Positions 1,640 to 34,637 of a stretch of 64,000 nt of DNA are shown here, piece after piece (the stretch's first letter is position 1; every line of letters begins with the position of its first letter). The notes beneath the pieces were generated by a model. It had not been told where the DNA came from and searched no databases. It saw nothing but the letters and a program-made list of their open reading frames with translations. This DNA is from a virus, in the IMG/VR virus record IMGVR_UViG_3300018065_000011, positions 186,001-250,000 of that record; one strand, written 5' to 3'. The translations under genes and the position numbers were made by a program.

Positions 1640-4600
1640 GTGGCTTTCCTCAAGTACGCATACGCTCAGACCGTCGAGCCCGCCATATCGGGACGCGGTT
1701 GGAGCAAGATCCGCACGGCAAGCGGCGGGTCTGATGCGAATTTGGTCGAGAAGGCCAGCGAGATCCTCGGGGAAAACTTCGACCCCCATCGGTATCTGCT
1801 GACACACGCCACGATCGTCGCGTCCGTGGACGTGGAAGAAGTCCCGAACGTCAAGCTCGGGTCAGTCCTCGATCCCAACACGGGACGCCGGATCAACCGG
1901 AAGTGGACCGACTACCGGGTCATACCTGAGTGCGACAAATTCATCAACAACAACTGTTTCATTCCTGGGACGCTCATCACAATGGCAGATGGCACGGTCA
2001 AGGCCATCGAGGACATCTGTGAGGGGGATGAGGTTCTGACGCATCTTGGTCGGCCGAAGCGAGTGACGGCCACGATGCGGCGCGATGTCGTTGAGGAATT
2101 ACGCGAGATCAAGCCGCGAGGAACAACGGAGCGGCTGTATGTCACGGCAGAGCATCCGTTCTATGTGTTTCGTGAGAACGCATGTGTGAATTGTGGAAGC
2201 CCGGCGCGGCAGCATGTCTCATGGAATGCACGCTGCATTTCGCATCTCATAGGGAAGTTTTACTGTTCCAGCGAGTGTTACTACGCGAAGCGGGTTCCGA
2301 AGCGCGAATTGTTGGAAGAGAAACGGGGAGAGTTTGTCGAGGCGAAGGATCTGACAGACCGCGATTTCACTGCTTCTCCCGTACTGAGAGGTGCAAAGGA
2401 TGTTGGGCTGACGCTTGGGCAAGCCCGTCTGATTGGATTGTTCTTGGCGGAAGGCTACTACGAGCAGGATAGTAGAAACGATAATGAGCGAGTTGGGGCG
2501 ATCTGGGCTTTTCACAAAGATGAAGCTCCTACGCTCGCGCGGCTCGTTCGGGATCTCATGAAGCGGGAGTTTGGGGTCGAGTGTGTCATACGGCCCCACA
2601 AGAACGACAACGGGATTCATGTCACGACAAGGACCCATCGTGACGCGGCGGCCTTCTTCACCAAGTGGGTTCGCGGAAGTGGATCTAAGACAAAGACTCT
2701 CCATCCTGATCTGCTGTTTGCTTCTGCCGACATACAAATGGAAATCGCGCGGGGGTGGCTGGAAGGAGACGGGTGTTTTCAGGACACACGCACTGAGAAA
2801 AAGCCTGGTGATATCCGGCTGACTGGCGATACCTCGAATCGTTCCCTTGCCAGTCAGATGCAGATCATCTTGCAGCGGCTCGGGATCTCTTCCCACCTGA
2901 CACGCATAGAATCGCCAGGACGTAAACGGCTGATCGTTGATGGTGAAATCAAGATTGTCAACGATCCCGAGAAGCCGCGAAACGTATCGTGGGCGCTTGC
3001 TTGCGGGGGTGCTTGGGTTGAAGATCTCGTGCAGGATACGGTGTACGAAGAGCCGTATCTTGCAGCCGTCGAGGAGCGCGGAGGACTTCAAGCTGCGCCC
3101 AAGTTGCGCTTCTTGAATGGCTACCACCTGCAAATCATCGAGAACCTCGATACGATCGCTTACGCGGGCCCTGTCTACAACTTTGATGTTGAAGACGACC
3201 ACTCGTATGTTGCTAACGGTGTCGCTGTTCACAACTGTGATGCTTGGGCTCGTCCGGTGTTGATGAAGTCGTACCGGACGTTCATCGGGGCACAAAACTT
3301 CTGCGAGCACTTGCAGAAGGAAGAAGAGTCGAAAGGCCGAATCATCGATGCCGTGGCTCGCGATATTGGACCATCAGTCTACATTGACATTTTGCTCGCG
3401 ACGGATCGTCGGCACACAGGTCTCGTGAGGGACATCGAGTCTGGCAAGATGAGCACTCTGAGTATGGGGTGCTTTCTGGCCGGGACGCAGGTGTCGTTGC
3501 AGGACGGCCAGCGGGTGGCGATCGAGGAGGTGGTCCCAGGGGATATGGTGCTGACCCACAAGGGTCGTTTTCGCGAGGTGCTCAACACGCAGATTCGGAC
3601 GTATCGAGGAGAGTTGCGTCGGATCAAGGCGGTTGGGGTTTCTTCTACCATTCAGGCGACGGCGAACCATGGGTTTGAGGTTTTGCGGGCTCCGAAGACG
3701 TGCGCTTGTGGGTGTGGAGAGCCCCTTGGGGAGACAAGCTCTATAACGCGCCGCACGACACGTCGTTTCAAACGAGGCCACGACAAACGGATCTACAACC
3801 CCAACAACACCTATTCGCTGGCGGAAGCCCGGCGGCGGAAGCAGCAGATTACTGATCTCAAAGCGCTTCGTTTCGAGAAAGTACGAGCGGATGAGCTTGA
3901 GGTTGGTGATTTCTTGTGCTTTCCCAAGGTTCGATTTCATCTACAGACTAAAGGCTGGACGGTTGGCAAGGCAAGGCTGGCTGGCTATTTCTTGGCCGAA
4001 GGTTCCTATCTCAAACACAAGGGTGAGCACGTTGAAGTGCAATTCAACTTCTCCATGGAGGAGAAGGACACTTATGTTCGTGAGGTAGTCGAGCTTCTTA
4101 AGGAGGAGTTTCCCGAGGCTAACGAACCCTGGGTTCAGGACCGGCCTAGTCGGAACACCTGTGTGGTCCACATGACTGGCCGTGATGCCGTGGCTTGGTT
4201 CTATAAACACTGCGGTGAGTATAGCCACGGCAAGCGGGTGTCGTTTGAGGCGATGCACGTACCCGCGGAGTTACACCGGCATCTTGTTGGCGCCTGGATC
4301 AATGGTGATGGCACGTTGGGTAAGGACAACAAGACGCTTTCGGGGACGACGACTTCCTATGCCTTGGCGTGTCAGTTGCATCTGCTATTGACGCGATGCG
4401 GTGTTTTTGTGCGGATGGAATGCGCGCAAAATGGAAGAGCGATCGAGCTTGCGGAGGCTGTAGGCGCCGGTTGGATGCCCGATCCTGAAACGGGTAAGCG
4501 TCCGGCCATTACTCTCGCGGTTGGGCTGTCCTCTGCACAACAGCTTCGGGGGTATTCTGACAAGGTTGGCCGTCCGTCAGAGGCACAGCAGCAGCTTCGT

Positions 4601-18624: not shown

Positions 18625-18630
18625 GGAATC

Positions 18631-18996
18631 ATGAACAAGACGGACAAGATCCCGACCAACCGACGATCTCCGGCTGCTACGCTGGCGTATTTGGCTCACG
18701 AAGCGTGGGATGGGCATTCCGCTCTGATCGTTCACGGCGGCATCCGAGGTTCGGGGCCCTCAGAGCATCGAGCGTCGATTCTCCGGTTCTTTTGGAAACA
18801 GCGTCGGCCGGGAGCTTTCATCGAGCAACAGTCTCCTGAGGTGCGCCAGCGTTTGCGTGAGCTTAGGTCTGACGACATAGCGAACGTTGGTGCGTTTCCA
18901 GATTGGTACGCGGCGGACGAATCCCCCGTAGGACGGGTCTGGAAACTGCCGGGTTCCAGAGATCGAAGCGGAGGGACGTACAATGACGCGTACTGA
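18631..18996 (+). CDS. Hypothetical protein, paralogue of 30390 gene
   Basis: 121 residues from ATG 18631. About 80% identical by eye to the protein at 30390-30737 over ~110 residues (both have RRSPAATLA, HSALIVHGGIRG, FWKQRRPGAFIEQQ, IANVGAFPDWYA, GRVWKLPG). The two copies diverge at the C-terminus. No known domain. Confidence 0.7.
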   Translation: MNKTDKIPTNRRSPAATLAYLAHEAWDGHSALIVHGGIRGSGPSEHRASILRFFWKQRRPGAFIEQQSPEVRQRLRELRSDDIANVGAFPDWYAADESPVGRVWKLPGSRDRSGGTYNDAY

Positions 18997-20734: not shown

Positions 20735-21703
20735 ATGAAAACACCAAGTCTCAAGAGACTCGATTGGATGGCTTTCTTCGAATCGGAGTTGGGCATCTGC
20801 AATGGAGACCCGGACAATCCGGGTTATCCGAGGATGACGGAGGACGGCTATCTGGTGATCAGCGGTCCTTTCCTGAATCGTCTGGGACGCAATCAGTACG
20901 AGCGCATGGTGGAGACGGGCGAGCTGCCCGCAAAGGGGAATGCGATCCACATTCAGCGTGGAGCCCGGCTTGCTAACGTTGCTGAGGAAGCCATTGCTGC
21001 GGCTGATCCCAAGGAAGCCGGGAAGATCTTGGAGGATGCCCGTAGTAAGCGCGACAAAGAGGCTGAGGAGGGGAAGAAAAAGACAAGAGCCCGGTCGAGT
21101 GTCAAGTATCCAGAGGAGAAGGTTCACGATGCGCTGACTCGCACGTTCATCGATGACGCGATGTACGGATCGGTCTTGACGAGCACAGTTTACACAGCCC
21201 CTTCCATTCACGGCGCCGTCACTACGCGTATGGGCATGTCTCTTCATCCTGTGGAGCTACACAACATGACCAACACGCGCATGGCGTCTGATAGTGATGC
21301 GGTGGACCGTTCTCGCGACTTCGCGCGCTCTAAACCGGTTCGCTACGCGCTCATTCGCACTGTGGGAACCTTTGATGCTTTTCGGGCTGAGAAGAACCAT
21401 GTCGATGCTGAGCGTCTCAAGGATTTCTTTGCCGTCTATCTGACGATGTGCGACAACGCGACATCGAATGCGCGCGGAACCTTCGGCCTTCGGGAGTTGA
21501 TTGTGGTCAAGCACAAGAGCCCCACAGGCAGCATGAGTCTGATCGATTTCAAGGATCGGCTCAAGGTGCGTATGCGGAATGGGGAGTGCCCGCGCTCGTT
21601 TGCCGACATCGAGCTTGGCTATGATGACAAGAACCTCCCTCCGGGGGCTGAGATCATCCGACTGGCTGAGCTACGGGGGAACTTGGATTGGCTGGTTAGC
21701 TGA
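20735..21703 (+). CDS. cas7: Cas7-like backbone subunit, type I-C
   Basis: 322 residues from ATG 20735. It has the NGDPDNPGYPR motif (residues ~23-33) typical of Csd2/Cas7c, the YTAPSIHGAVTTRMGMSLHP segment corresponding to the conserved Cas7 beta-strand region, and NMTNTRM in place of the usual SITRM. Cas7 subunits form the helical backbone of Cascade along crRNA. It is first in the operon and its TGA overlaps the cas5 ATG (TGATG). The gene order cas7-cas5-cas8 is inverted relative to common I-C loci (cas3-cas5-cas8-cas7). Confidence 0.85.
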   Translation: MKTPSLKRLDWMAFFESELGICNGDPDNPGYPRMTEDGYLVISGPFLNRLGRNQYERMVETGELPAKGNAIHIQRGARLANVAEEAIAAADPKEAGKILEDARSKRDKEAEEGKKKTRARSSVKYPEEKVHDALTRTFIDDAMYGSVLTSTVYTAPSIHGAVTTRMGMSLHPVELHNMTNTRMASDSDAVDRSRDFARSKPVRYALIRTVGTFDAFRAEKNHVDAERLKDFFAVYLTMCDNATSNARGTFGLRELIVVKHKSPTGSMSLIDFKDRLKVRMRNGECPRSFADIELGYDDKNLPPGAEIIRLAELRGNLDWLVS

Positions 21704-22368
21704 TGCCAAGTGTTTACTTTCAGGGCGACTTCGCCCACTTTTCCAACCCGCTGCTGAAGGCCGAGGGGACTACCTTTCCCGGCCCTCCGCCTTCGGCTCT
21801 CCGCGGAGCCATTGAAAACATCCTGTTCAAGATGGGCGTCTACGTGGATGTCCGCCGCATCACGTACCACCGGCCGATTCGGACGATGAACTTCAAGACG
21901 AACGGCCTCAAACATGCGGTAGGCATGTCGCAGATCACGCTCCCGGATGCCCATCAGATGAACAACACGTTGCTCTACGACGTGGCCTATACAGTGGACT
22001 TCGATCTGCGCTTGTGTTGGCGTGACCGAGAGACCCAAGAGATCGTTAAGTTCGATGAGAGGGTGCTGGAGAGCCAGGATCTTCGGAAGTACATGGCGAT
22101 GTACGAGAAGTATATCCGCCTGGGTAAGTGTCAGCACCCGCCTTGGCTGGGGTCGAAATTCTGCGAAGCTCTGTTCAGGGCACCCCGGCCCGAGGACACG
22201 CCGATTCAGGAGTCGCGGGACTTGGGGATGATGACGCACGGCATCGAGTACCGTAAGGCGGGGAACATCACCCATGTCTTTCATCCGGTGATGAGAGACG
22301 GGGTTGTAGAGGTGGACTCGTTCTTCGATGTTCTCAAGGCCCGCTACGGGTTGAGGGCGGGTCAATGA
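21703..22368 (+). CDS. cas5: Cas5-like crRNA endonuclease/subunit, type I-C
   Basis: 221 residues from ATG 21703. FQGDFAHFSNPLLKAEGTTF, PSALRGAIENILFKMGVYVD, VRRITYHRPIRTMNFKTNGL and KCQHPPWLGSKFCEALF follow the Cas5c/Cas5d pattern. In type I-C systems Cas5 replaces Cas6 and cuts repeats on the 3' side of the hairpin; no cas6 is present here. Lengths match (usually 220-240). The stop overlaps cas8 (ATGA). Confidence 0.83.
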   Translation: MPSVYFQGDFAHFSNPLLKAEGTTFPGPPPSALRGAIENILFKMGVYVDVRRITYHRPIRTMNFKTNGLKHAVGMSQITLPDAHQMNNTLLYDVAYTVDFDLRLCWRDRETQEIVKFDERVLESQDLRKYMAMYEKYIRLGKCQHPPWLGSKFCEALFRAPRPEDTPIQESRDLGMMTHGIEYRKAGNITHVFHPVMRDGVVEVDSFFDVLKARYGLRAGQ

Positions 22369-24041
22369 TTCGTCTCGACACACTCGTTGCCTTGGGGCAA
22401 CGGGAAAAACTCGGCTATCTGCTCGATGACCAGCGGCCCTATGGGGAAGTTGTGTTGGATGCGGAGGGCCACATCATCACTGTTCGCAAATCCTCTGGGG
22501 CGGTTCCCGTCCCAGACTTGCCCAATCGCACCAACTCCGAGTTGCGCATTGGGATGTATGTCGAGAACGAGATGTATCTCTTTGGGACGACTCCGAAGGA
22601 GTACAAGGACCCCACGAAGCCTAGGAAAGCGCTGGAGCACGCTGCTGAAGCCTATGCCAAGATCGCCAAGGAAGTGCGGATCAAAGCCACACAGGCGGTC
22701 GCGCGGTTCTACGACTTGTCTCTAAGGGGCAAGCACAAGGTGCCGAAGGGGTGGCGATTTCAGCGGTATGTGTTTGTCTATAAGGACCAATACCTGCCCA
22801 GCGTTCCGCAGCTTCGCCCTGTGATTGAGAAATTTGTAGATGCCATTCCTAGCGTGGACAGCATCGAAAGGCAGTGCTTGATTACGGGAGAGTGGGTGCG
22901 GTGTCAGACGACGCCCCACGCAAACACCAAAGGACTTAGCTCCAACTCCAGTGGAGCGTCCTTTGTGAGTTTCAATGGGACAAGTCAGTACCAGGGGCGT
23001 CCCGAGGATCGGTTCTTGACGGCTCCCATCGCCCCTGGTGTATCTCGACTCATGACTTCAGCGCTTTCGTGGTTGAGCCGGAATCGTAGAATCCAACTCA
23101 CGCCCGATCTCAATGTCTTGGTCTGGACTGAGGAAGGCCACCCGCTAGAGGCTCTCGGGCCGAAGTTGTTTGCGCCAGAGAAGGAGTCCCGAGAACAGCG
23201 AACGAAACGCGAAGAGGAAGCCGTTGGTGACCTCTTCGCTCATCCTGAGTGGGATGAGAGCACGGAGGCCGCCTACCTCCTGACAACGACTGGGAATATG
23301 GGTCGCTTCGCGGTCCGTGAGTGGGAGGAAACGACTGTCGGCAGGCTCTCTGCCAATCTGAGGCGGTTCGTTCAGGACTTCACAGTCGAGATCACAGTTG
23401 GGGAAGAGGAAGTCCAAGCTCGTCACACGTCTCTCTCGCGGCTGTACGCAGCGTGGTCCGATAGGCAGGTGGTACACCGTGACATCCTTGCCCTAGCCAA
23501 CATGGCGCTCAAAGGAATGCCGGTACCAGAGTGTGCGTGGCCCTCCGGTGCGCCAGAAACCATTATCCAGAAAGCCATCTTTCAAGCGTATAGGAAACGG
23601 AACATGGAGAATCCAGGAAATTTCACAGCGGACATCAGCGTAGACGGGCAGTCGAATGCTTACCGGATGGGACGGGCTTGTGCCGTCATGGAGGACGCTC
23701 GGTACAGCGCGAACAGAGCCAACAGTCGGGGGGTGATCGCGCACAATGTGGTTGACAACCCGTCTGTTGGGTTTCACCGGGCGATGCAGTCCATCATCCA
23801 CCATTTGCCCAAGCGCCCAGGCAATCAGTACGCTGAGAGTCTCAGCGTGTTCACCAGCGGGATCGAAATTCCTGATCGGTTTGCTGTTCGGGAGCAGAAC
23901 GAGTTTTGGCTGGGGTATCTCTACGAGCAGGGCCGTCAAAGCTACTTGTATAGGCTGGGGCGCGATGCCAAGAGCGCCAAGAAGAGCGAGCAGGGCGCGG
24001 ATGGCCAGGACGTAGACGCCAGGGCATTGCTTGATGATTGA
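22365..24041 (+). CDS. cas8c: Cas8c (Csd1)-like large subunit
   Basis: 558 residues from ATG 22365. Csd1 hallmarks: VPDLPNRTNSELR near the start, CLITGEWVRCQTTPHANTKG (~168-187), ASFVSFNGTSQYQG and SALSWLSRNRRIQLTPDLNV (~230-250), then QNEFWLGYLYEQGRQSYLYR at the C-terminus. Cas8c recognises the PAM, starts R-loop formation and in I-C also supplies the small subunit by internal translation. Overlaps cas5 by 4 bp and the helicase by 8 bp. Confidence 0.87.
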   Translation: MIRLDTLVALGQREKLGYLLDDQRPYGEVVLDAEGHIITVRKSSGAVPVPDLPNRTNSELRIGMYVENEMYLFGTTPKEYKDPTKPRKALEHAAEAYAKIAKEVRIKATQAVARFYDLSLRGKHKVPKGWRFQRYVFVYKDQYLPSVPQLRPVIEKFVDAIPSVDSIERQCLITGEWVRCQTTPHANTKGLSSNSSGASFVSFNGTSQYQGRPEDRFLTAPIAPGVSRLMTSALSWLSRNRRIQLTPDLNVLVWTEEGHPLEALGPKLFAPEKESREQRTKREEEAVGDLFAHPEWDESTEAAYLLTTTGNMGRFAVREWEETTVGRLSANLRRFVQDFTVEITVGEEEVQARHTSLSRLYAAWSDRQVVHRDILALANMALKGMPVPECAWPSGAPETIIQKAIFQAYRKRNMENPGNFTADISVDGQSNAYRMGRACAVMEDARYSANRANSRGVIAHNVVDNPSVGFHRAMQSIIHHLPKRPGNQYAESLSVFTSGIEIPDRFAVREQNEFWLGYLYEQGRQSYLYRLGRDAKSAKKSEQGADGQDVDARALLDD

Positions 24042-26241
24042 CGTGTGTCAATTCGTCACCGGCCTCTCCTCGGACAGAGGAGAGGCCGAATCTTCTGGCC
24101 CCGACTCTCTGTGGGAGCATCAGCAGTTTGGGTTCCTTGATGTAGTAGACCACATCCTGAATCGGAAGGAGAAGCAAGTTGGGCTGTCTGGCCAGCCAGG
24201 GTGTGGTAAGACGCGCCTTACGACGTATATTGCGGCTTACTTGGCCAAGTCTCCGGTGTCTCCTATCACTAGAGTAGTCGTTGTGGTCCCGACCCAGATC
24301 ATTCGGGACCAGTACAGAGGACAGAAGTCTGTAGTCCGGTTTGGGGCTGTTGAGGACGTAGCTGGGGAGGGCCCGAACAACAAAGCTGTCATCTCGGTCC
24401 CTGACATTGACTTAGGGAAGCTGATAGACCCTATGGTGGCTGGTCCAAAATATCTCGTGGACCACGTCACAGGTGCCGGCAAGCCGAGAGTCATCCTTGC
24501 CACGACTATGGACACCTTTCGCAGAGCCCTAGATTGCATTGGCGACATGAGCCATGTGTTAGTCGTTCTCGATGAGGCGCATCGGTTCCCTGTAGGAGAA
24601 TTCAAAGCATGGGCAAAGGCCAGAGTCGCTTGTGAGGAGAAGAGTGCCACTATCCTTGCCACGACGGCTACGATGTACCGAGCGGACGGGCTTCCGATTT
24701 GTCCTGGTGCGTACATACACCAAATTCCCCGGATCAAACTGATTGAGGCTGGCCTCTGCCCAAGTCGCTTTCCTGTAAAGGTTGTTCTCCTTCCCTCCGT
24801 CGCTAAGACAGCGACGGAGGTAGTGGATGTCCGTGTGAAAGGGGAAGGAACGGAAGGAACCCTTGTAGAGCTTCTGACCGATGACGATCTCCGTTTTGGG
24901 GTGCGGCATTGGGTTGGTCTGGGATGCCCGTTTGGCCTCATGCGATGCCAAACCCAGGCGTTGACCAAGCGCTTGAAAGAAATTGTCGAGGAGGAGTGTC
25001 CCCACCTGAAGGCTGAGGAGGTGGGGCGCCCCGTTGTGGATCTTTCGGGCAAAGAGGTAGACAAGATGTGGCCCGTTGTGGATCTTTCGGGTTCCAAGGT
25101 GAACAAGGCGTTGGAGGCCCAGATTGCGCATGATGGCCGTGTGCGGCATGCCAATGAGATACGGACACAGCTAGTTGTGGGCATTCGACGTGTTGAGTGT
25201 GGTTTCGACTGGCCTCCGGTATCTCATGTCTTCAACTTCGGGCTCATTTCGTCTGAGACCCTCCTGGCCCAGCTTCGAGGACGGGGTTGGCGTTCGAAGA
25301 CGAGATACGAGGGCTACCCTGAGCGGTTTCGGGATGAGGCGTGGCTCATCATGTTTGTGCCGACTGTGTCAGAGGAAGCTCGAACGGAGTTTCTGAGGAG
25401 CCCTGATCATCTCAAGCTGTTGATGATCATCGCGGCGACCACGGTCAATGAAGAGGCAGGTACTCTGCTGTCGTTCATCCATGATGAGATCCAGAAGGGG
25501 TTGTCGCGGTATGTGCGTGGGTACCGGGACCAGTTGCAGGTCATCCGTATCCTGGGGGCCCTCAACCCTGAGCCCAGAGAGATGGACGAAATACGGGCTG
25601 ATCTTGGAAAGATCGAGACTCGGCTCGGAGGCGATGTGTCCGTTTCGGACTACATCAGAGAGATTGTCTTAGAGTCGCGGGACGAGAAGAAGCGTGGGGT
25701 CGTGAAGAGAAAGTGGTCGAGACGACGGAAGCTCGGAGCCCTGATTCTTTTGTTGGGGCAGAAGGGTCAGTCCAAGAAAGAGACCGCGCGGCTGATTCGG
25801 GAGCTTCTGGACAAGAAGAAATCGGTTACGCTCGTGGAGAGTCCTGAGCAGGTTTCAGATGAGGTTCGCTCCGTGCTTGCAGATGCTCTCAATCAGTTGG
25901 TTGAGAAGCATGGCGACATTGTTACCTTCACGGACACATACGAGGAGATGGCGGCCACCATGAACACCGATGTGGACACTATCCGTCGCATGCAGCGAGA
26001 GGTGGACCGTCTGACACAATTCAAGCCTCGCAGCTATCAGGTTGCTGTTGAGGCTGTTAGCCAAGAGTTGGTTCACTGCGGAAGGCGGTGGAAGGTTCTC
26101 CAGGACCTTTCCGGGCCTCTTGGCTTGGACCCAGGGACCTACACAATGCGTCATCTCGATCGCGATCTACGACATCAGGTGTTGAAAGGCCAGCCAGAGG
26201 ACATCAACAGTTTGAGAGACTTGAGGCATGCGTTTCGGTAA
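24034..26241 (+). CDS. SF2 DEAH-box helicase in Cas3 position, no HD nuclease
   Basis: 735 residues; ATG 24034 preferred over TTG 24031. Motif I GQPGCGKTRL (~53-62), Ia VVVPTQIIRDQY, II VLDEAHR, III ATTATMYRADG, V QLVVGIRRVECGFDWPPVSH and VI LAQLRGRGWRS define an SF2 helicase of the DEAD/UvsW-like kind. No HD motif is present at either end and the N-terminus is too short for a Cas3 HD domain. It is translationally coupled to cas8c, so it very probably serves the same complex, unwinding or displacing DNA rather than degrading it. Huge-phage type I-C variants with a helicase instead of Cas3 have been reported. Confidence 0.85.
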   Translation: MIDVCQFVTGLSSDRGEAESSGPDSLWEHQQFGFLDVVDHILNRKEKQVGLSGQPGCGKTRLTTYIAAYLAKSPVSPITRVVVVVPTQIIRDQYRGQKSVVRFGAVEDVAGEGPNNKAVISVPDIDLGKLIDPMVAGPKYLVDHVTGAGKPRVILATTMDTFRRALDCIGDMSHVLVVLDEAHRFPVGEFKAWAKARVACEEKSATILATTATMYRADGLPICPGAYIHQIPRIKLIEAGLCPSRFPVKVVLLPSVAKTATEVVDVRVKGEGTEGTLVELLTDDDLRFGVRHWVGLGCPFGLMRCQTQALTKRLKEIVEEECPHLKAEEVGRPVVDLSGKEVDKMWPVVDLSGSKVNKALEAQIAHDGRVRHANEIRTQLVVGIRRVECGFDWPPVSHVFNFGLISSETLLAQLRGRGWRSKTRYEGYPERFRDEAWLIMFVPTVSEEARTEFLRSPDHLKLLMIIAATTVNEEAGTLLSFIHDEIQKGLSRYVRGYRDQLQVIRILGALNPEPREMDEIRADLGKIETRLGGDVSVSDYIREIVLESRDEKKRGVVKRKWSRRRKLGALILLLGQKGQSKKETARLIRELLDKKKSVTLVESPEQVSDEVRSVLADALNQLVEKHGDIVTFTDTYEEMAATMNTDVDTIRRMQREVDRLTQFKPRSYQVAVEAVSQELVHCGRRWKVLQDLSGPLGLDPGTYTMRHLDRDLRHQVLKGQPEDINSLRDLRHAFR

Positions 26242-26860
26242 GGCCAAGGAAGTTTCGCGGGAGAACAATCTCCTTCACGTGATGAACAGCTATTTGCTGT
26301 TCTCGGGCGGCAAGATGCGAGTCGATTGGCTGGAGGTGCCGGGCGAAGGCTCTCCGATGGTGAGAATCCTTCGATCCTATCTCGTACCGGGCGTGTCCAA
26401 GCTCGTTTGTTTGGATCGTAACGCCGAGTACGTCCGGGAGGGCGAGGAGCAATACGGGAGTGAGATCTGCGAGTGGGTTTTGGCCGATGACTTGTTTGCC
26501 GAGCTAGCTAATTCACCGGACAAGTACGCTAACGTAGGGGTTCTGAATGTCGATCTCTACAACAGCCTTCGTCTGCTCGAATTCCCCGAACAGATGCGGA
26601 TCGTCATGGAGTTTGCCACACGCCAGTTCTGGGCGATCGGGGCCTTCATGGTGTTTCTGAACTACTCGATGCGAGGCAGTGTTCGCGAGGAGTTTGCTCA
26701 AGACGTGATCAAGACTCTGGAGCCTTATCTAGATTTGTCACAGGTTGATCTCACTGATGAGGGCTACCTGTACAAAGGAGGAACGCCTGACCAACCAGGC
26801 AACCGGAGATTGAATCTTCGGATACACCTAGGACCAACAAGGACACCGAACAATGAGTAA
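26228..26860 (+). CDS. Unknown protein with Rossmann-like segment, cas operon
   Basis: 210 residues from ATG 26228, overlapping the helicase by 14 bp. PMVRILRSYLVPGVSKLVCLD followed by an acidic residue and later VGVLNVDLYNSLRLLEF is reminiscent of Rossmann-fold methyltransferases, but the glycine-rich SAM loop is not evident. Its place inside the CRISPR operon suggests an accessory role (interference nuclease, DNA modifier or regulator). No nuclease motif seen. Confidence 0.7.
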   Translation: MRFGKAKEVSRENNLLHVMNSYLLFSGGKMRVDWLEVPGEGSPMVRILRSYLVPGVSKLVCLDRNAEYVREGEEQYGSEICEWVLADDLFAELANSPDKYANVGVLNVDLYNSLRLLEFPEQMRIVMEFATRQFWAIGAFMVFLNYSMRGSVREEFAQDVIKTLEPYLDLSQVDLTDEGYLYKGGTPDQPGNRRLNLRIHLGPTRTPNNE

Positions 26861-27191: not shown

Positions 27192-27400
27192 AGGCAGAAA
27201 AGCACGCTACGGGTCGCGTGAGCGCCTCCTAGTTTTGCGTGCCTTTTCCTGAGGTTTCCTTCTGCGGGGCGATTGCGAGTACAACGAGCTTTCTGACATT
27301 CGCAGAGTAGAACACGTCAGCGCTGTTCAGGCGCGCGATTTCACCCCTCGTGCATAACCTGCGATTACGAGCAATGATTTCAGCAGGTTCTAAGCCAAGG
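27192..27400 (+). promoter_or_regulatory. CRISPR leader with decayed repeats
   Basis: 209 bp. A long stem pairs AAAAGCACGC (27198-27207) with GCGTGCCTTTT (27237-27247), possibly ending the cas transcript. 27254-27285 is a decayed repeat (GTTTCC, then CTGCGGGGCGATTGCGAG, then ACAAC). Around 27340-27371 a second has only its tail (CCTGCGATTACGAG). No strong promoter seen. Decayed repeats at the leader end are unusual, as new units are normally added there. Confidence 0.6.
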
Positions 27401-28006
27401 GTTTCCGCCCTGTTACGGGGCGGTTGCGATTACAAGGAAGAGCCGCTGGACCTGAGCGCAGCCACCAAGCTGTTTCCGCCCTGTTACGGGGCGGTTGCGA
27501 TTACAAGAGCCGTGAACGAGCAGGAATGCGCCCAAATCCTGGCCGAGTTTCCGCCCTGTTACGGGGCGGTTGCGATTACAAGGCCATGAGCTTGGCGCTC
27601 ATTGATTCGAGGGCCGCTGCGTTTCCGCCCTGTTACGGGGCGGTTGCGATTACAAGATCGAGATTCTGCGGTGGACACGCGCCAGCATGTTGAGTTTCCG
27701 CCCTGTTACGGGGCGGTTGCGATTACAAGGATTGCACGGCCTACGAGGGGTTTCCGCTCTCTCTTCCGTCTCCGGCCTCGAATCGAGGAGGCGGTTTCGA
27801 TTGCAACGCACGCGGATGCGAAACTCCGTCTTCTCCAAGTCTGTCTCCGCGGGAGGCGGTTTCGATTGCAACATGTCGTGCGTCGAGACATCCAGAGTGG
27901 GTTCCGTCTCCGCGGGGAGGCGTTTCGATTGCAACACCAACGGCGGTCAGGGAGTTGGAGCATGGGATTGCGTTCCGTCTCCGCGGGGAGACGGTTTCGA
28001 TTGCAG
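27401..28006 (+). CRISPR. CRISPR array 1: five uniform repeats, then four of a second family
   Basis: Repeats of 36 bp start at 27401, 27472, 27547, 27621 and 27694: GTTT, arm CCGCCC, loop TGTTAC, arm GGGGCGG, tail TTGCGATTACAAG; spacers are 35, 39, 38 and 37 bp. Four repeats of another family follow (27764-27807, 27838-27872, 27901-27935, 27972-28006): arm CCGTCTCC, arm GGAGRCGG, tail TTTCGATTGCAAC, with spacers of about 28-36 bp. The first of these has a longer loop holding CCTCG/CGAGG. The hairpin near the 5' side fits Cas5c processing. The array is read in the same direction as cas. Confidence 0.93.
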
Positions 28007-28034
28007 TATGTTGGTGGTGGAATCCTCGCCGAGT

Positions 28035-28064
28035 AGAGCCCCCTCAAACGAGGGGGCTCTTTTT
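28035..28064 (+). terminator. Strong intrinsic terminator inside the CRISPR locus
   Basis: Perfect 11-bp stem (AGAGCCCCCTC, 28035-28045; GAGGGGGCTCT, 28050-28060), loop AAAC, then TTTTT. It should stop a transcript coming through array 1, so array 2 would need its own promoter or antitermination. Confidence 0.93.
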
Positions 28065-28070
28065 CCCAGT

Positions 28071-29011
28071 CTTCGATTACAACTACGCCATTCGGCCCCA
28101 AGGCGATCTCGTTTCCGCCCTCCTGCGGAGCGGTTGCGATTACAACGCTCTCACCGGCCTCAGTGTTCTCTACTCCTTCTGGTTTCCGCTCCTCTGCGGA
28201 GCGGTTGCGATTACAACTACCGGACCGACAGCTACACCAATCTGATCAGAAAATCGAGCACCGTCGCATCGGACAGTGGTTTCCGCTCCTCTGCGGAGCG
28301 GTTGCGATTACAACTAATCGGTTTCCACCGCCGAGGGAGAACCCCGCACGTTTCCGCCCTCCTGCGGGGCGGTTGCGGTTACAACGTGACGGTCACAGGT
28401 CGAATTTCGTCTGCCCGGTCCGCCCTCCTGCGGGGCGGTTGCGATTACAACGCTACCGAGAGATCGCGGAACGGTTGGGTGTTTCCGCCCTCCTGCGGGG
28501 CGGTTGCGATTACAACCTGCACGCTCAGCCGCCCACGAGGGTACGAGGTTCGTCTCCGAGGGAGACGGTTTCGATTGCAACCAGATGTGGGATGCAGTGT
28601 CCGTGTCCGCCTCTCACGGAGGCGGTTTCGATTGCAATTTCGTTGGCTCTCACTGATCGGTTTTTCGTGTTCCGTCTCCGAGGAGGCGGTTTCGATTGCA
28701 ACCCCACTGACCTCAGCGCCATACGACGGTTCCGTTCCGTCTCCGAGGAGACGGTTTCGATTGCAACCTCCACCCACGTCGTGTAGGTGCCGCCCCGTAG
28801 AGGGGCGGTTTCGATTATAACACGCGGGACTCGGGAAGAAGTTGAACCCGGATCGTTGGGTCCGCCCTTTTGGGCGGTTTCGATTACAACAATCAAGGTG
28901 GTACGTCATTTCGGGAGAGGGAGCGATTGCGATTACAACCGCATGATGTCCTGGATGGGCTTGATCGTTGAGGTTTCCGCTCTCTGCGCTACGGAGGGCG
29001 GTTGCGATCAA
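28071..29011 (+). CRISPR. CRISPR array 2: heterogeneous repeats
   Basis: It starts with a partial repeat (28071-28082). Family A tails (TTGCGATTACAAC): 28111, 28182, 28279, 28350, 28418, 28481. Family B tails (TTTCGATTGCAAC): 28548, 28603, 28669, 28734. Hybrids follow at 28787 (TTTCGATTATAAC) and 28858 (TTTCGATTACAAC), then degenerate ones at 28909 and 28973. Spacers range from about 18 to 61 bp. Arms differ among repeats but stay paired (CCGCTCC/GGAGCGG, CCGCCTC/GAGGCGG, CCGTCTC/GAGACGG, CCGCCCC/GGGGCGG). No new uniform repeat block suggests no recent acquisition. Confidence 0.9.
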
Positions 29012-30075: not shown

Positions 30076-30393
30076 ATGGAATGCACGTGCGAAATAGAGT
30101 GTTGTGACGGAGAGCCTATCCTCGACTACGAGGCTGTCCGGCTCACGGTGCAGGAGAGCCCTCTATGCGATGAGTGCGGTGAGACGATTCCGAAGGGAGC
30201 GTTTGCGGAGCGCGTGACGGGGTTGTGCGAGGGCGAGTTTGTCTGCTGGTACACCTGCGAGGTATGCTTGCGGATCAGAGACGATCTCATGGGCCGGTGT
30301 TTCTGCCATGGCACGATGCGAGATGACCTGCGAAGCTGCCTTGGTGTAGACTACGTTACGGGCGAGGTTGATGAGGAATGGGAGGCGGCATGA
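30076..30393 (+). CDS. Cys-rich zinc-binding protein
   Basis: 105 residues from ATG 30076. MECTCEIECCDGE and then CDECGETIPKG..CWYTCEVCLRIRDDL give two zinc-ribbon pairs, a pattern seen in small phage proteins. Its C-terminus is the piece also found as a fragment at 18376. Overlaps the next gene by 4 bp. Confidence 0.68.
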   Translation: MECTCEIECCDGEPILDYEAVRLTVQESPLCDECGETIPKGAFAERVTGLCEGEFVCWYTCEVCLRIRDDLMGRCFCHGTMRDDLRSCLGVDYVTGEVDEEWEAA

Positions 30394-30737
30394 ACAAGAT
30401 GGATGAGATCCCAACCAGCCGACGATCCCCAGCCGCCACCCTGGCACACCTAGCCCATGAAGCATGGGAGGGGCACTCGGCCCTGATCGTTCACGGCGGC
30501 ATCCGAGGGACGGCGCCTCCGTCAGAGCATCGGGCGCGGATACTCCGCTCGTTTTGGAAGCAGCGTCGGCCGGGAGCGTTCATCGAGCAGCAGCCACCAG
30601 GGGTACGCCAGCGTTTGCGGAACCTCCGATCCGAAGACATCGCCAATGTCGGCGCATTCCCGGATTGGTACGCTGAGGAAGAACCCCCAGTAGGCCGCGT
30701 CTGGAAACTGCCGGGTTTCCGAGACGACATCCTCTAG
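30390..30737 (+). CDS. Hypothetical protein, paralogue of 18631 gene
   Basis: 115 residues from ATG 30390. Strongly similar to the 18631 gene along its length (shared FWKQRRPGAFIEQQ and DIANVGAFPDWYA). Here the upstream Cys-rich gene is intact, so this is the more complete copy of the duplicated unit. The stop overlaps the end of the convergent minus-strand gene. Confidence 0.7.
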   Translation: MNKMDEIPTSRRSPAATLAHLAHEAWEGHSALIVHGGIRGTAPPSEHRARILRSFWKQRRPGAFIEQQPPGVRQRLRNLRSEDIANVGAFPDWYAEEEPPVGRVWKLPGFRDDIL

Positions 30738-31274: not shown

Positions 31275-32387
31275 GTGACCAAGGAAAGCAAATTCAAGCA
31301 ACGCGTGCGTGATCGTATGGAGAGGACGGGCGAATCCTACGCTACTGCTCGACGCAACGAGAATGAGGCTGCGGGTTTGATCGAGGAGATGAAGGCAGTG
31401 GATGCTGAGCTTAGTGAGCTAGAGAAAGCTCAGCTAGAGCGCGAGAAGGTCAATCGTCAGTGGGTGAAGGACAACCCAGGGCTCAAGGTTGTGACGCTGA
31501 CGTTGACGCATAACGAGCACGGGACGCCGACGATTCACGTGTCGGGTCCTGAGCTTACGTCCATCCAGATCACCCAGCCGCCTGACGTATACGTGGAAGC
31601 CATCCGACAGGCGTACCAGGACAACGAGTGGGCGAAGAACCCGAAGGACGATCTTGGTGATCTTCCCGAGTGTCGTTTGGAGGACTCCAAGCGCAAAGAG
31701 GACTTTGTCTACGAAAGCGGACCCGCGCCCGAGGGCACGATTCATGAGGACTTTGATGCGTTGGTGGCGGCGCTGTACAAGGTGAAGGGCCGTGTCATGT
31801 CTGTGGATCATCCGAACCATGGGCTTGTCGGGTTTGTGGAAACCGAGACGGACAAGTACCACTGGATACGGATCAAGCCGACTCTTGCCTGGACTGAAAC
31901 GGTCGCTTGGGAACATCGAGAGCTTTGGGGCCTGATGCAGACGCCGCGAGGGCGTTGCAAGGCCGCGGGTCTTTTCAGCCAGGAAGAGATGCTGGCGAAG
32001 GTGTCGTCGGCTCTAGAGGGCTGGTGGAAGAGTGCCTCTCCGTTTCCGACCAATCCTGATCCTGCGGAGATCGTTGCTCCGCTTTCTGGAGAAGCGTTGG
32101 CTGATGTGTTTGCTCACGTCGAGAAATTCGATGTTTCGGTTGAGGCGATTGTGATGTCGGCGCGCAGTTTCCATGAGGTTTGTAAGCACGCAAGCGACAG
32201 CATCCGCTTGGAAACTCGTGCCCGGCTGATGAAGAAAGGGCTAATGGGTCGCCTGTGGGATGCTCTCGTGATCACGACCCGAGAGATCGATGAGGATGAG
32301 ATATGTTTCTTGGGTCGGGATCCCGAGGGGAAGTGGGTGTGTCACTCGCTTCGTGTGATTCGGCCATCTGCGCAGGGTTCAGAGTGA
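31275..32387 (+). CDS. Protein with capsid-like C-terminal domain
   Basis: 370 residues from GTG 31275 (GAGGAA upstream). N-terminus KFKQRVRDRMERTGESYATA, shared with the 39775 gene. The middle is unassigned. Residues ~261-363 align with capsid protein residues ~153-256: VAPLSGEALADVF, VMSAR, LMKKGLMGRLWDALVITTRE match VAPISGAVLADAF, YMNAR, LLKTGLQATLWGAQIITSRL. The aligned part of the HK97 fold is probably the central P/A-domain region. It ends inside the opposite gene. Role unknown: decoy, inhibitor or assembly factor. Confidence 0.75.
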   Translation: MTKESKFKQRVRDRMERTGESYATARRNENEAAGLIEEMKAVDAELSELEKAQLEREKVNRQWVKDNPGLKVVTLTLTHNEHGTPTIHVSGPELTSIQITQPPDVYVEAIRQAYQDNEWAKNPKDDLGDLPECRLEDSKRKEDFVYESGPAPEGTIHEDFDALVAALYKVKGRVMSVDHPNHGLVGFVETETDKYHWIRIKPTLAWTETVAWEHRELWGLMQTPRGRCKAAGLFSQEEMLAKVSSALEGWWKSASPFPTNPDPAEIVAPLSGEALADVFAHVEKFDVSVEAIVMSARSFHEVCKHASDSIRLETRARLMKKGLMGRLWDALVITTREIDEDEICFLGRDPEGKWVCHSLRVIRPSAQGSE

Positions 32388-34637
32388 CCTTCCGTGTTTT
32401 CGGAAGGCGATCCCGAGATTCCTTGCCCTGAGCTTGTCGTCTGCCCAGCACAGCCTGCATTCGCTACACGTCAACCCGGACAAGGTCTGCGCCGGGCAAG
32501 GGGCCAGCGACCAACCCGTCCCAGGTACCTGGAATACCTGACCGTCGGGAGATAGAGCAGGCACAATGACGGCAGGCGCGTACCCCATTGACACGACCCT
32601 CTTGATGTCTTCCACCGTGTCACAGGAGCCAAGGACGCTCGCCCGCCGAAACGCGGCGCGTGGGATCCACGCTGCCGAGTGAGTGTACGTCCACAGAGCC
32701 GTTCCCCTGTTCGCCAACCACCAGTCCGCGAGCCCAGCAACCATTTTTGCCTGACCGACCGTCGTCACGTCTCCACCACCATCGTGTAGACATAAGGCGA
32801 GCCCTTGGGGATCGGGAAATTTCTCCTTCGCAAGTTTGGCCTCAGCCGCGATAATTTCGTCGGCCGTCCAGTTTCCGTCTTTCGCTATTCGCTCAAGCCG
32901 CTTTGAGTTGCAAGGGTGTGCGTAGCATCCGTTGTCGCGCAGGGGGCAACTTGGCGGGCATGTTTGTTTGATGGGAATCGAGGTTGAGATGATTTGAGAG
33001 ATCGGCTTGGAGCCTCGGATCGGTGCATGTATTGCGACGGGTGGTTGGCGCGTTTTTGAAGAGATCCCGTGTTTGCGGAGATGGCAGATCACAGTTGATG
33101 GGGACACTTCCAGAGCTTGAGCGATGGTTTGATTGGTTGCTCCCTCTGCTACCATCTGTCGAAGAACATCCGCATCGAGGGGCTTGGGTTTCGGCCGCTC
33201 GATCCCATGTTTGCGGAGATGGTACGCCACAGTTGATGGGGACACTTCCAGAGCCCGAGCGATGGTCCGATTGGTTGCTCCCTCTGCCACCATTTGTCGA
33301 AGAACATCCGCATCGAGCTTTCGAGCGGTGGTTTGGTTGGGTTTCTCTGCCACAACCTTCCGCTCGATCCCGTGTTTGCGGAGATGGTACGCCACAGTTG
33401 ATGGGGACACTTTCAGAGCCCGCGCGATGGCCTGATCGGTTGCTCCCTCTGCTACCATCTGTTGAAGAACGTCCGCATCGAGAGTTTTCTGTTTCGGCCG
33501 CTCGATCCCGTGTTTGCGGAGATGGTACGCCACAGTTGATGGGGACACTTTCAGAGCCCGCGCGATGGCCTGATCGGTTGCTCCCTCCATCGTCATTTGT
33601 CGAAGAACATCCGCATCGAGGGGCTTGGGTTTTGGCCGCTTGATCCCGTGCTTGTGGAGATGGTACGCCACAGTCGAGATAGACACTTTCAGAGCCCGAG
33701 CGATGGTCCGATTGGTTGCTCCCTCCATCACCATTTGTCGAAGAACATTCGCTTCTATGGTGGTTTTGCAGCGCTGCGATGGTGGAGGGGCGGCCTTCCA
33801 AAGCTCCTGTTGCCATTCGGAGAAACTGTCGAAATCGCGTCCGTTAGTGTAAGCCCATCGTTTGAGGAGACGGCTGCGTTTGGGTTCGGGCGTCTTGCAC
33901 CAAGCGATGTAATTCAGCAGCCATCGAAAGTTGGTCAGGGTTTTCGGAATCTCTGCGGGAAACCTTCGTGGGAAGATTTGTCGGAGGATTCTCTGAAGAG
34001 TCTCTTGTTTCCAGGCTCTAGTCTCGATCTGGAAAGGCGCGTACCACCCTGCCTTTTTTCCAGCAGACATCCAGGCTTGGATTTGAGCCTTGGTCTGGTC
34101 GGCCGATGCGTATTCTCTGCGGTACGATTTAGAGAAAAAATGCTTTCCGTCCGGCAGGCTTTCCAGCAAGCGTTTCTGTTTCGGTTCGATTTTTCCGAGA
34201 ACGTATCGCCTGCGCCATGTTTCTAGCCACCATTTCCACTTTTTCTGGGAGCGTAGTTCCCAAAGAGATTGAGACTTTGTTAGGTGCTTGAGTCGGGTGA
34301 TCCTGTCAAGCCATCGGGCGTGTGGGTATTTGCCGTCATTGTGGACTCGGTTGTTCCAGGTCCACCCGTCTAAGCTCTCAAGCAGCCGTATGCGATCTTG
34401 TGTTAGCTCTCCGTTGCGGTACATTCGGCGCTGATAAGCTATCCATTTCCCTATTGGTCGTCCGTCTCTTCGATCCGTGTAGCGGATTTGGTCGGCGCCA
34501 CCACGTTCTTCCGATTCGGCAAGCACTTCGTAGTACGTCCCCATCCACTGGGCTGTCGAAAACGGTTGTGATCGCTTCCGCCATCTTCGAAGGTCCCTCA
34601 TCCAGTCTTTTTCGACGCACTGATCTCGGCTTGGCAT
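32379..34637 (-). CDS. Helicase-associated + five HTH + Cys-rich fusion protein
   Basis: 752 residues, start ATG at 34635-34637. Residues ~13-97 match the helicase-associated (HA) domain (GKWIAYQRRMYRNGELTQDR, LLESLDGWTWN); two more degenerate HA-like repeats reach ~270. Five nearly identical ~40-residue HTH repeats follow at ~293-526 (GATNRTIARALKVSPSTVAY, KHGI). The C-terminal ~200 residues have TCPPSCPLRDNGCYA, LCLHDGGGDVTT and CSECRLCW, resembling a Cys-rich phage domain of unknown function, perhaps with a metal cluster. Probable DNA-binding protein with a long modular reader. It is not a CasPhi-type nuclease: no RuvC motifs seen. Confidence 0.8.
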   Translation of the reverse strand: MPSRDQCVEKDWMRDLRRWRKRSQPFSTAQWMGTYYEVLAESEERGGADQIRYTDRRDGRPIGKWIAYQRRMYRNGELTQDRIRLLESLDGWTWNNRVHNDGKYPHARWLDRITRLKHLTKSQSLWELRSQKKWKWWLETWRRRYVLGKIEPKQKRLLESLPDGKHFFSKSYRREYASADQTKAQIQAWMSAGKKAGWYAPFQIETRAWKQETLQRILRQIFPRRFPAEIPKTLTNFRWLLNYIAWCKTPEPKRSRLLKRWAYTNGRDFDSFSEWQQELWKAAPPPSQRCKTTIEANVLRQMVMEGATNRTIARALKVSISTVAYHLHKHGIKRPKPKPLDADVLRQMTMEGATDQAIARALKVSPSTVAYHLRKHGIERPKQKTLDADVLQQMVAEGATDQAIARALKVSPSTVAYHLRKHGIERKVVAEKPNQTTARKLDADVLRQMVAEGATNRTIARALEVSPSTVAYHLRKHGIERPKPKPLDADVLRQMVAEGATNQTIAQALEVSPSTVICHLRKHGISSKTRQPPVAIHAPIRGSKPISQIISTSIPIKQTCPPSCPLRDNGCYAHPCNSKRLERIAKDGNWTADEIIAAEAKLAKEKFPDPQGLALCLHDGGGDVTTVGQAKMVAGLADWWLANRGTALWTYTHSAAWIPRAAFRRASVLGSCDTVEDIKRVVSMGYAPAVIVPALSPDGQVFQVPGTGWSLAPCPAQTLSGLTCSECRLCWADDKLRARNLGIAFRKHGRSL
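33060..33761 (-). repeat. Tandem HTH-encoding repeats
   Basis: Five repeats of about 130-140 bp inside the 752-residue gene, with high DNA identity (recurring GATGGTACGCCACAGTTGAT on the plus strand). Most linkers are alike (RPKPKPLDADVLRQM); one is longer. The near identity points to recent expansion, unequal crossing-over or selection for changing specificity. Confidence 0.85.

Follow-up and report, generated by a model that had tools for sequence, protein, structure and literature searches.

Sequence-diverged repeats with paired stem changes in the type I-C-like CRISPR array of a jumbo phage

Canonical type I-C CRISPR systems of bacteria (Bacillus halodurans, Desulfovibrio vulgaris; review PMC5965380) have a Cas5d-type enzyme, repeats that consist of a hairpin followed by a 3′ tail, and spacers of about 35 nt. 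The phage locus described here resembles them in these respects, the spacer length being that of one block of repeats, family A. However the phage tail reads CGATTrCAA(C/G) and the canonical tail ATTGAAA(C/T), the phage repeats are 36 nt and not 32-33 nt long, and the phage is without Cas3, Cas1 and Cas2 and displays far more repeat variants. The type I-C variant of huge phages (Al-Shayeb et al. 2020, PMC7162821) has Cas5, Cas7 and Cas8 of the I-C type, a helicase in place of Cas3, no Cas1 or Cas2, altered Cas5 residues, and spacers directed against other phages. These features are shared by the present phage, also a huge phage with a helicase in place of Cas3 and no Cas1 or Cas2 found in its records of 372 and 497 kb. 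It should be noted that the likeness is one of gene content, and that the passages on this variant make no mention of diversified repeats or of covariation within an array. In the structure motifs of CRISPRmap (PMC3783184) stems are likewise kept by compensatory base pairs; those are seen on comparison of arrays from different genomes, whereas in the phage they are seen within one array. The virus-borne mini-CRISPR arrays (Medvedeva et al. 2019, PMC6858448) also target related viruses, and stand-alone repeats are found in virus genomes in both cases; the mini-arrays have no cas genes and 1-2 spacers, whereas about 25 units and effector genes of its own are found in the phage array.

The window, i.e., the whole stretch of DNA analysed, is 64,000 nucleotides long and represents positions 186001-250000 of a virus record of 372,162 bases. 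A second IMG/VR record of the same phage, with 497,194 bases, shows 1 mismatch in 21,674 compared bases, and an 86.8-kb record is a third copy. A circular genome of about 498.5 kb is probable from the offsets of shared matches between records (276,023 for the array and a solitary repeat, -222,525 for a gene located beyond them), the size being deduced from these offsets and not from assembly. The element that hosts the array is a jumbo phage of about 498 kb that infects bacteria. With 1 differing base in 21.7 kb, the records give no information on recent change.

Upstream of the array, all on the plus strand, are cas7 (Csd2-like, 20735-21703; Pfam Cas_Cas7 7.4e-37, PADLOC Cas7), cas5c, the presumed pre-crRNA endonuclease gene (21703-22368; PADLOC Cas5c 3e-30), cas8c (Csd1-like, 22365-24041; Pfam Cas_Csd1 1.4e-42, PADLOC Cas8c), and, in the place of cas3, a ResIII/DEAD helicase gene (24031-26241; Pfam ResIII 1.8e-10). 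The type I-C Cas5c, Cas7 and Cas8c are thus present by PADLOC and Pfam, with scores that lie under the NCBIfam equivalog cut-offs. No Cas3_HD domain is found in either phage record (372 and 497 kb), the helicase being without an HD nuclease, and neither Cas1, Cas2 nor a Cas6 match is detected. A search of the phage genome for adaptation genes gave a single Cas4-like match, below cut-off and far from the array. Relatives of the Cas proteins in IMG/VR belong to the same phage only, none are present in INPHARED, and elsewhere only distant plasmid I-C proteins are found.

Several other genes of the phage are noted here. A 210-aa gene at 26228-26860, between the helicase gene and the array, overlaps the end of the helicase gene, and its product has no match in Pfam, PADLOC, NCBIfam or PHROGs. 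The cas-array region is flanked by a pair of duplicate genes (18630-18962 and 30389-30724) with 79% DNA identity. At 32379-34637 on the minus strand, 3.4 kb from the array, is a gene for a protein of 752 aa that has a DUF7227 domain and about five helix-turn-helix units in tandem, near-identical to one another; its similarity to the CRISPR repeat-binding protein Cbp1 is weak and below cut-off. Three Cas12f/TnpB-type zinc-ribbon proteins are above cut-off in the phage genome (G000:55215, G000:97731, G001:242154), and may be either TnpB proteins of transposons or CRISPR effectors. The huge-phage type I-C variant is accompanied by a CasPhi (Cas12j) system, and these three proteins are what the phage genome shows of this kind.

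The AlphaFold2 model of the phage Cas5 has a pLDDT of 82, and in the PDB it matches type I-C Cas5 chains best, the top fold match being Cas5 of the D. vulgaris I-C Cascade (8dej_A, E 2e-15). Sequence and predicted fold together support the assignment of this array-adjoining gene as a type I-C Cas5. Lys129 is kept in the phage protein, and K is found at this position in 69 of the 73 bacterial Cas5c proteins compared. In B. halodurans Cas5d the catalytic residues presumably are the equivalent of Lys129, the His next to it and a Tyr; the phage has Y in place of the His and L in place of the Tyr. The phage Cas5 differs also at many positions that are otherwise invariant among the 73 bacterial proteins. 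Altered Cas5 residues are reported in huge phages as well (PMC7162821). B. halodurans Cas5d leaves an 11-nt 5′ handle (PMC5965380), and by analogy the conserved 13-nt tail of the phage repeats would fit a Cas5d-type 5′ handle.

The array extends over 27251-29011 of the window with about 25 units, all on the plus strand. Stem-forming units number 23, of which 22 are in the array (27401-29011) and one is solitary elsewhere; each has a hairpin of 6-10 bp followed by TTkCGATTrCAA, with loops of 2-13 bases when an eight-pair scheme is used. The cas-proximal end has two degenerate repeats (27251-27371), one at 27251-27289 and one, at 27357-27371, consisting of the tail only; their tails have 2-4 mismatches, with a covariance model (CM) match of E 0.04. 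These are followed by family A, five identical repeats GTTTCCGCCCTGTTACGGGGCGGTTGCGATTACAAG at 27401-27729, and by family B1 at 27764-28007, four repeats with the stem CYGTCTCC/GGAGRCGG and the tail TTTCGATTGCAAC. Family C (28111-28516) has six repeats of the form CCGCYCYC..CGGRGCGG, TTGCGATTACAAC, and family B2 (28548-28767) has four. Downstream are two intermediate repeats with a CCGCCC-type stem and the tails TTTCGATTATAAC and TTTCGATTACAAC (28788-28890), a degenerate repeat without a proper stem (28905-28939; CM match E 0.19), and the last repeat (28973-29011), which has a 10-bp stem and a truncated tail. The stem of the last repeat corresponds to that of family A with a paired insertion, TC in one arm and GA in the other.

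Between families B1 and C, at 28035-28064, is a hairpin that resembles an intrinsic terminator, with 11 bp followed by a U-run (-25 kcal/mol, z -4.2). An orphan repeat tail without a stem of its own is found 3′ of it (28069-28083), and the section 28035-28083 appears as if a repeat stem had been replaced or the array split. Transcription of the second half of the array is uncertain because of this strong terminator-like hairpin in mid-array. The solitary repeat, GTTTCCGCTCTGCTACGGGGCGGTTGCGATTACAAC, is on the minus strand (G000:4478; L011 4460-4501) and adjoins the 3′ end of an open reading frame on the plus strand (3952-4470), and the would-be guide is antisense to the end of that gene. A scan of 20-36 kb with Rfam gave sub-threshold matches only.

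Direct repeats and unique spacers, as are characteristic of CRISPR arrays, are found throughout, in regular form in family A and irregularly elsewhere. Unit spacing is 71-75 in the family A block (sd 1.5) and 49-97 elsewhere, with an sd of 9.4 over the whole array. Several spacers in the diverged parts have a length of only 18-30 nt, below the usual I-C length, and may not guide a normal complex. The hairpins at 27766, 27841 and 28420 are predicted to lose to other folds in their local context. Almost no variation is seen among the units in the outer three stem pairs or in the tail TT.CGATT.CAA. Thus of the original prediction, that selection keeps the fold and only loosely the sequence, the part on the fold stands, by the paired changes described below, and the part on the sequence does not extend to the stem base and the tail. 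These two elements are likely the processing signal, with only the inner pairs and the loop free to vary.

Bacterial type I-C loci, 80 of which were fetched, were used as controls; all are bacterial, and phage-encoded arrays would be the better control for this comparison. With ungapped detection, 60 bacterial arrays with 1573 repeats have a median of 2 distinct repeats, which bears out the premise that normal arrays have near-identical repeats. No stem pair with two Watson-Crick types is found in 57 of these arrays, one such pair in two arrays, and two in one array. A tail-anchored method was also applied equally to phage and bacterial loci. By this method 64 of 65 bacterial clusters are without a pair of two Watson-Crick types and the remaining cluster has one, as compared with five in the phage. 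The near-identity of repeats usual in CRISPR arrays is not found in the phage, where 24 units have 18 distinct stem and loop sequences (bacterial median 2, tail-anchored). The spacing of the family A block is like that of the bacterial arrays, but that of the whole phage array is not (sd 9.4, bacterial median 1.3), and greater irregularity is found in only one of 55 bacterial arrays. Rare paired stem variants within an array are seen also in a few bacterial I-C arrays (L151, L167, L185).

All hairpin arms named in the original prediction are present, having been placed there 2-4 bases ahead of the true stem starts (27405, 27975, 28186, 28551 or, with a T-G pair, 28550, 28607, 28790 and 28862). 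The original prediction had at least three stem positions changing on both sides together; five of the eight positions display two or more Watson-Crick pair types. The pair types are CG/UG/UA at pairs 4, 5 and 7, CG/UA at pair 6, and CG/GC at pair 8. Intermediate steps are found in neighboring units. Pair 4 is C-G at 28607, U.G at 28672 and U-A at 28737 in consecutive B2 repeats; within family C, pair 5 is C-G, with C.A at 28115 and U-A at 28186. Among half-changed pairs, six positions have U.G and one has C.A, as expected for selection on the plus-strand RNA, which this difference suggests. However the excess of U.G may instead stem from a strand-biased mutation.

Among the 16 distinct arm sequences, 93.7% of cells are paired, and this drops to 42-62% when the partner is slid by 1-3 columns. 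None of 500 shuffles matched the pairing percentage or the covariation score; this control ignores the relatedness of the repeats, and for that reason two further nulls were run. When the right-arm columns are relabelled, with the history of each column left intact, co-change along the array has P 0.002, or 0.005 if the G-C pair is kept fixed, and the 112 of 119 cells that are paired have P 0.0001, or 0.0008 with that pair fixed. Of 20 right-arm changes, 14 coincide with a change in the partner. By co-change the covariation is significant; it is weaker by the tree-based null, whose tree was made from the same columns as those tested. The latter null reached the observed number of pairs with at least two Watson-Crick types in 44 of 5000 runs, the mutual information in 231 of 5000 and the paired cells in 356 of 5000. 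It is concluded that the paired change is genuine, though from modest numbers; independent paired changes are few, and with the tree-based null P is only 0.009-0.07. Families A and B are set apart by several sites together, and many units may thus have inherited some of the covariation from just one or two old events.

Part of the variation represents two interleaved repeat lineages (A/C and B) and not one drifting repeat. This leads to the consideration that the two lineages evolved their stems in separate arrays, of other phages or hosts, and were merged by recombination or duplication, with most of the paired changes being older than the merger. The block order A-B-terminator-C-B, with stem and tail changing together between blocks, would be expected from such a history, as would the finding that adjacent repeats resemble each other more than expected at random (P 0.0017), and the two arrays of one bacterial genome (L155) show that arrays can differ by compensated stems. 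However paired steps and half-steps are also found inside blocks, in pair 4 in B and pair 5 in C, and arrays with these tails are not found in the other viral contigs and the bacterial genomes searched. A mosaic origin is possible for the array as a whole, but not the probable one. With the two-tail pattern, related arrays in viral contigs were found only in the same phage (L058, L085), and no related array was found in bacterial genomes. The other viral contigs with the pattern, 80-odd, are unrelated and mostly represent coding tandem repeats. Two of them, small viral contigs (L038, L092), have unrelated CRISPR arrays with repeats that end in GATTGCAAC.

Simple decay of the older, distal repeats of the array, with pairing by chance, would be in keeping with five identical repeats near the cas genes and irregular, degenerate ones further on, and with the modest extent to which the tree-based null is exceeded. 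But random decay breaks pairs, and the proportion of paired cells remains at P ≤0.0008 with column histories kept; degenerate units are moreover present at the cas-proximal end too, and decay is a most improbable explanation. Hardly better placed is a correction at the DNA level, whereby template switching during replication perfects imperfect palindromes with no selection on RNA. Although it could yield the double changes and the paired TC/GA insertion of the last repeat, it would not leave the U.G half-pairs, and bacterial arrays with similar hairpins do not show such paired change; it is very improbable.

Of four spacers of the family A block searched in viral contigs, spacer s4 (27583-27620) has a match in another contig, the 23.3-kb phage contig IMGVR_UViG_3300028840_004731, at 37 of 38 positions, in an open reading frame upstream of a capsid-like gene. 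In this contig spacer s2 (27437-27471) also matches a portal-like gene at 33 of 35 positions, and the last 17 bases of spacer s3 (27508-27546) match the capsid-like gene. In the diverged half, the long spacer s13 of the C block (28218-28278) matches at 25 of 28 positions a capsid-like gene of IMGVR_UViG_3300009509_000148, a relative of the first contig with a capsid protein 80% identical. All four spacers are on the plus strand, and the gene names portal-like and capsid-like are from the context of the open reading frames and sequence resemblance, not from a family search. Reversed spacers, as a control, peak at 23.8 bits, as compared with 58.6, 50.7 and 36.5 for the unreversed spacers. Thus the spacers match mobile elements, as those of CRISPR arrays do, and a rival phage group is the target of the guides in the array, with at least one match in the diverged half. 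The targets are on both gene strands, as for DNA targeting. No self-targeting spacers were found, the two good matches show no fixed PAM motif (upstream TTT and ATG), and a search with the whole array against phage and plasmid collections gave chance-level matches only.

The explanation that probably holds is that Cas5 exerts selection for the hairpin and the tail, and that the array, not being refreshed by a Cas1-Cas2 of its own, drifts in ways that are neutral for pairing. The locus is a phage-encoded type I-C-like system with its array aimed at competing phages. The transcript would be cut at each repeat, the diverged ones still in use, most likely by the phage Cas5c and at the 3′ base of the hairpin. 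The substrate of the enzyme would have to have a hairpin of about 6-8 bp with C-C-G/C-G-G at its base, followed by the 3′ tail TTkCGATTrCAA, which would become the crRNA handle. Inner stem pairs and the loop would be tolerated in any form that pairs, with divergence along the path C-G > U.G > U-A. Repeats in normal arrays are uniform because Cas1-Cas2 keeps copying one repeat; the phage apparently is without these proteins, and thus its array would not be refreshed and would drift under selection for the fold. The five identical repeats of family A would be recent, and possibly were added with host adaptation proteins acting in trans. Recombination or duplication of two repeat lineages had a part as well, as the interleaved blocks show. 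It is doubtful that the repeats have in addition been selected to differ and yet fold alike, in that identical 36-base repeats would let a recombination-prone phage genome delete spacers; in that case the array would be a guide store that is conserved in fold and diversified in sequence.

About 18 stem variants, including single-step intermediates, are found beside one Cas5, and represent a natural test of which features a type I-C processing enzyme recognizes, and of how repeats evolve when the genome that carries them has no Cas1-Cas2 to refresh them. The array also ties the guides of a jumbo phage to structural genes of one rival phage group. A single array would thereby record which features the CRISPR machinery requires and which are free to vary.
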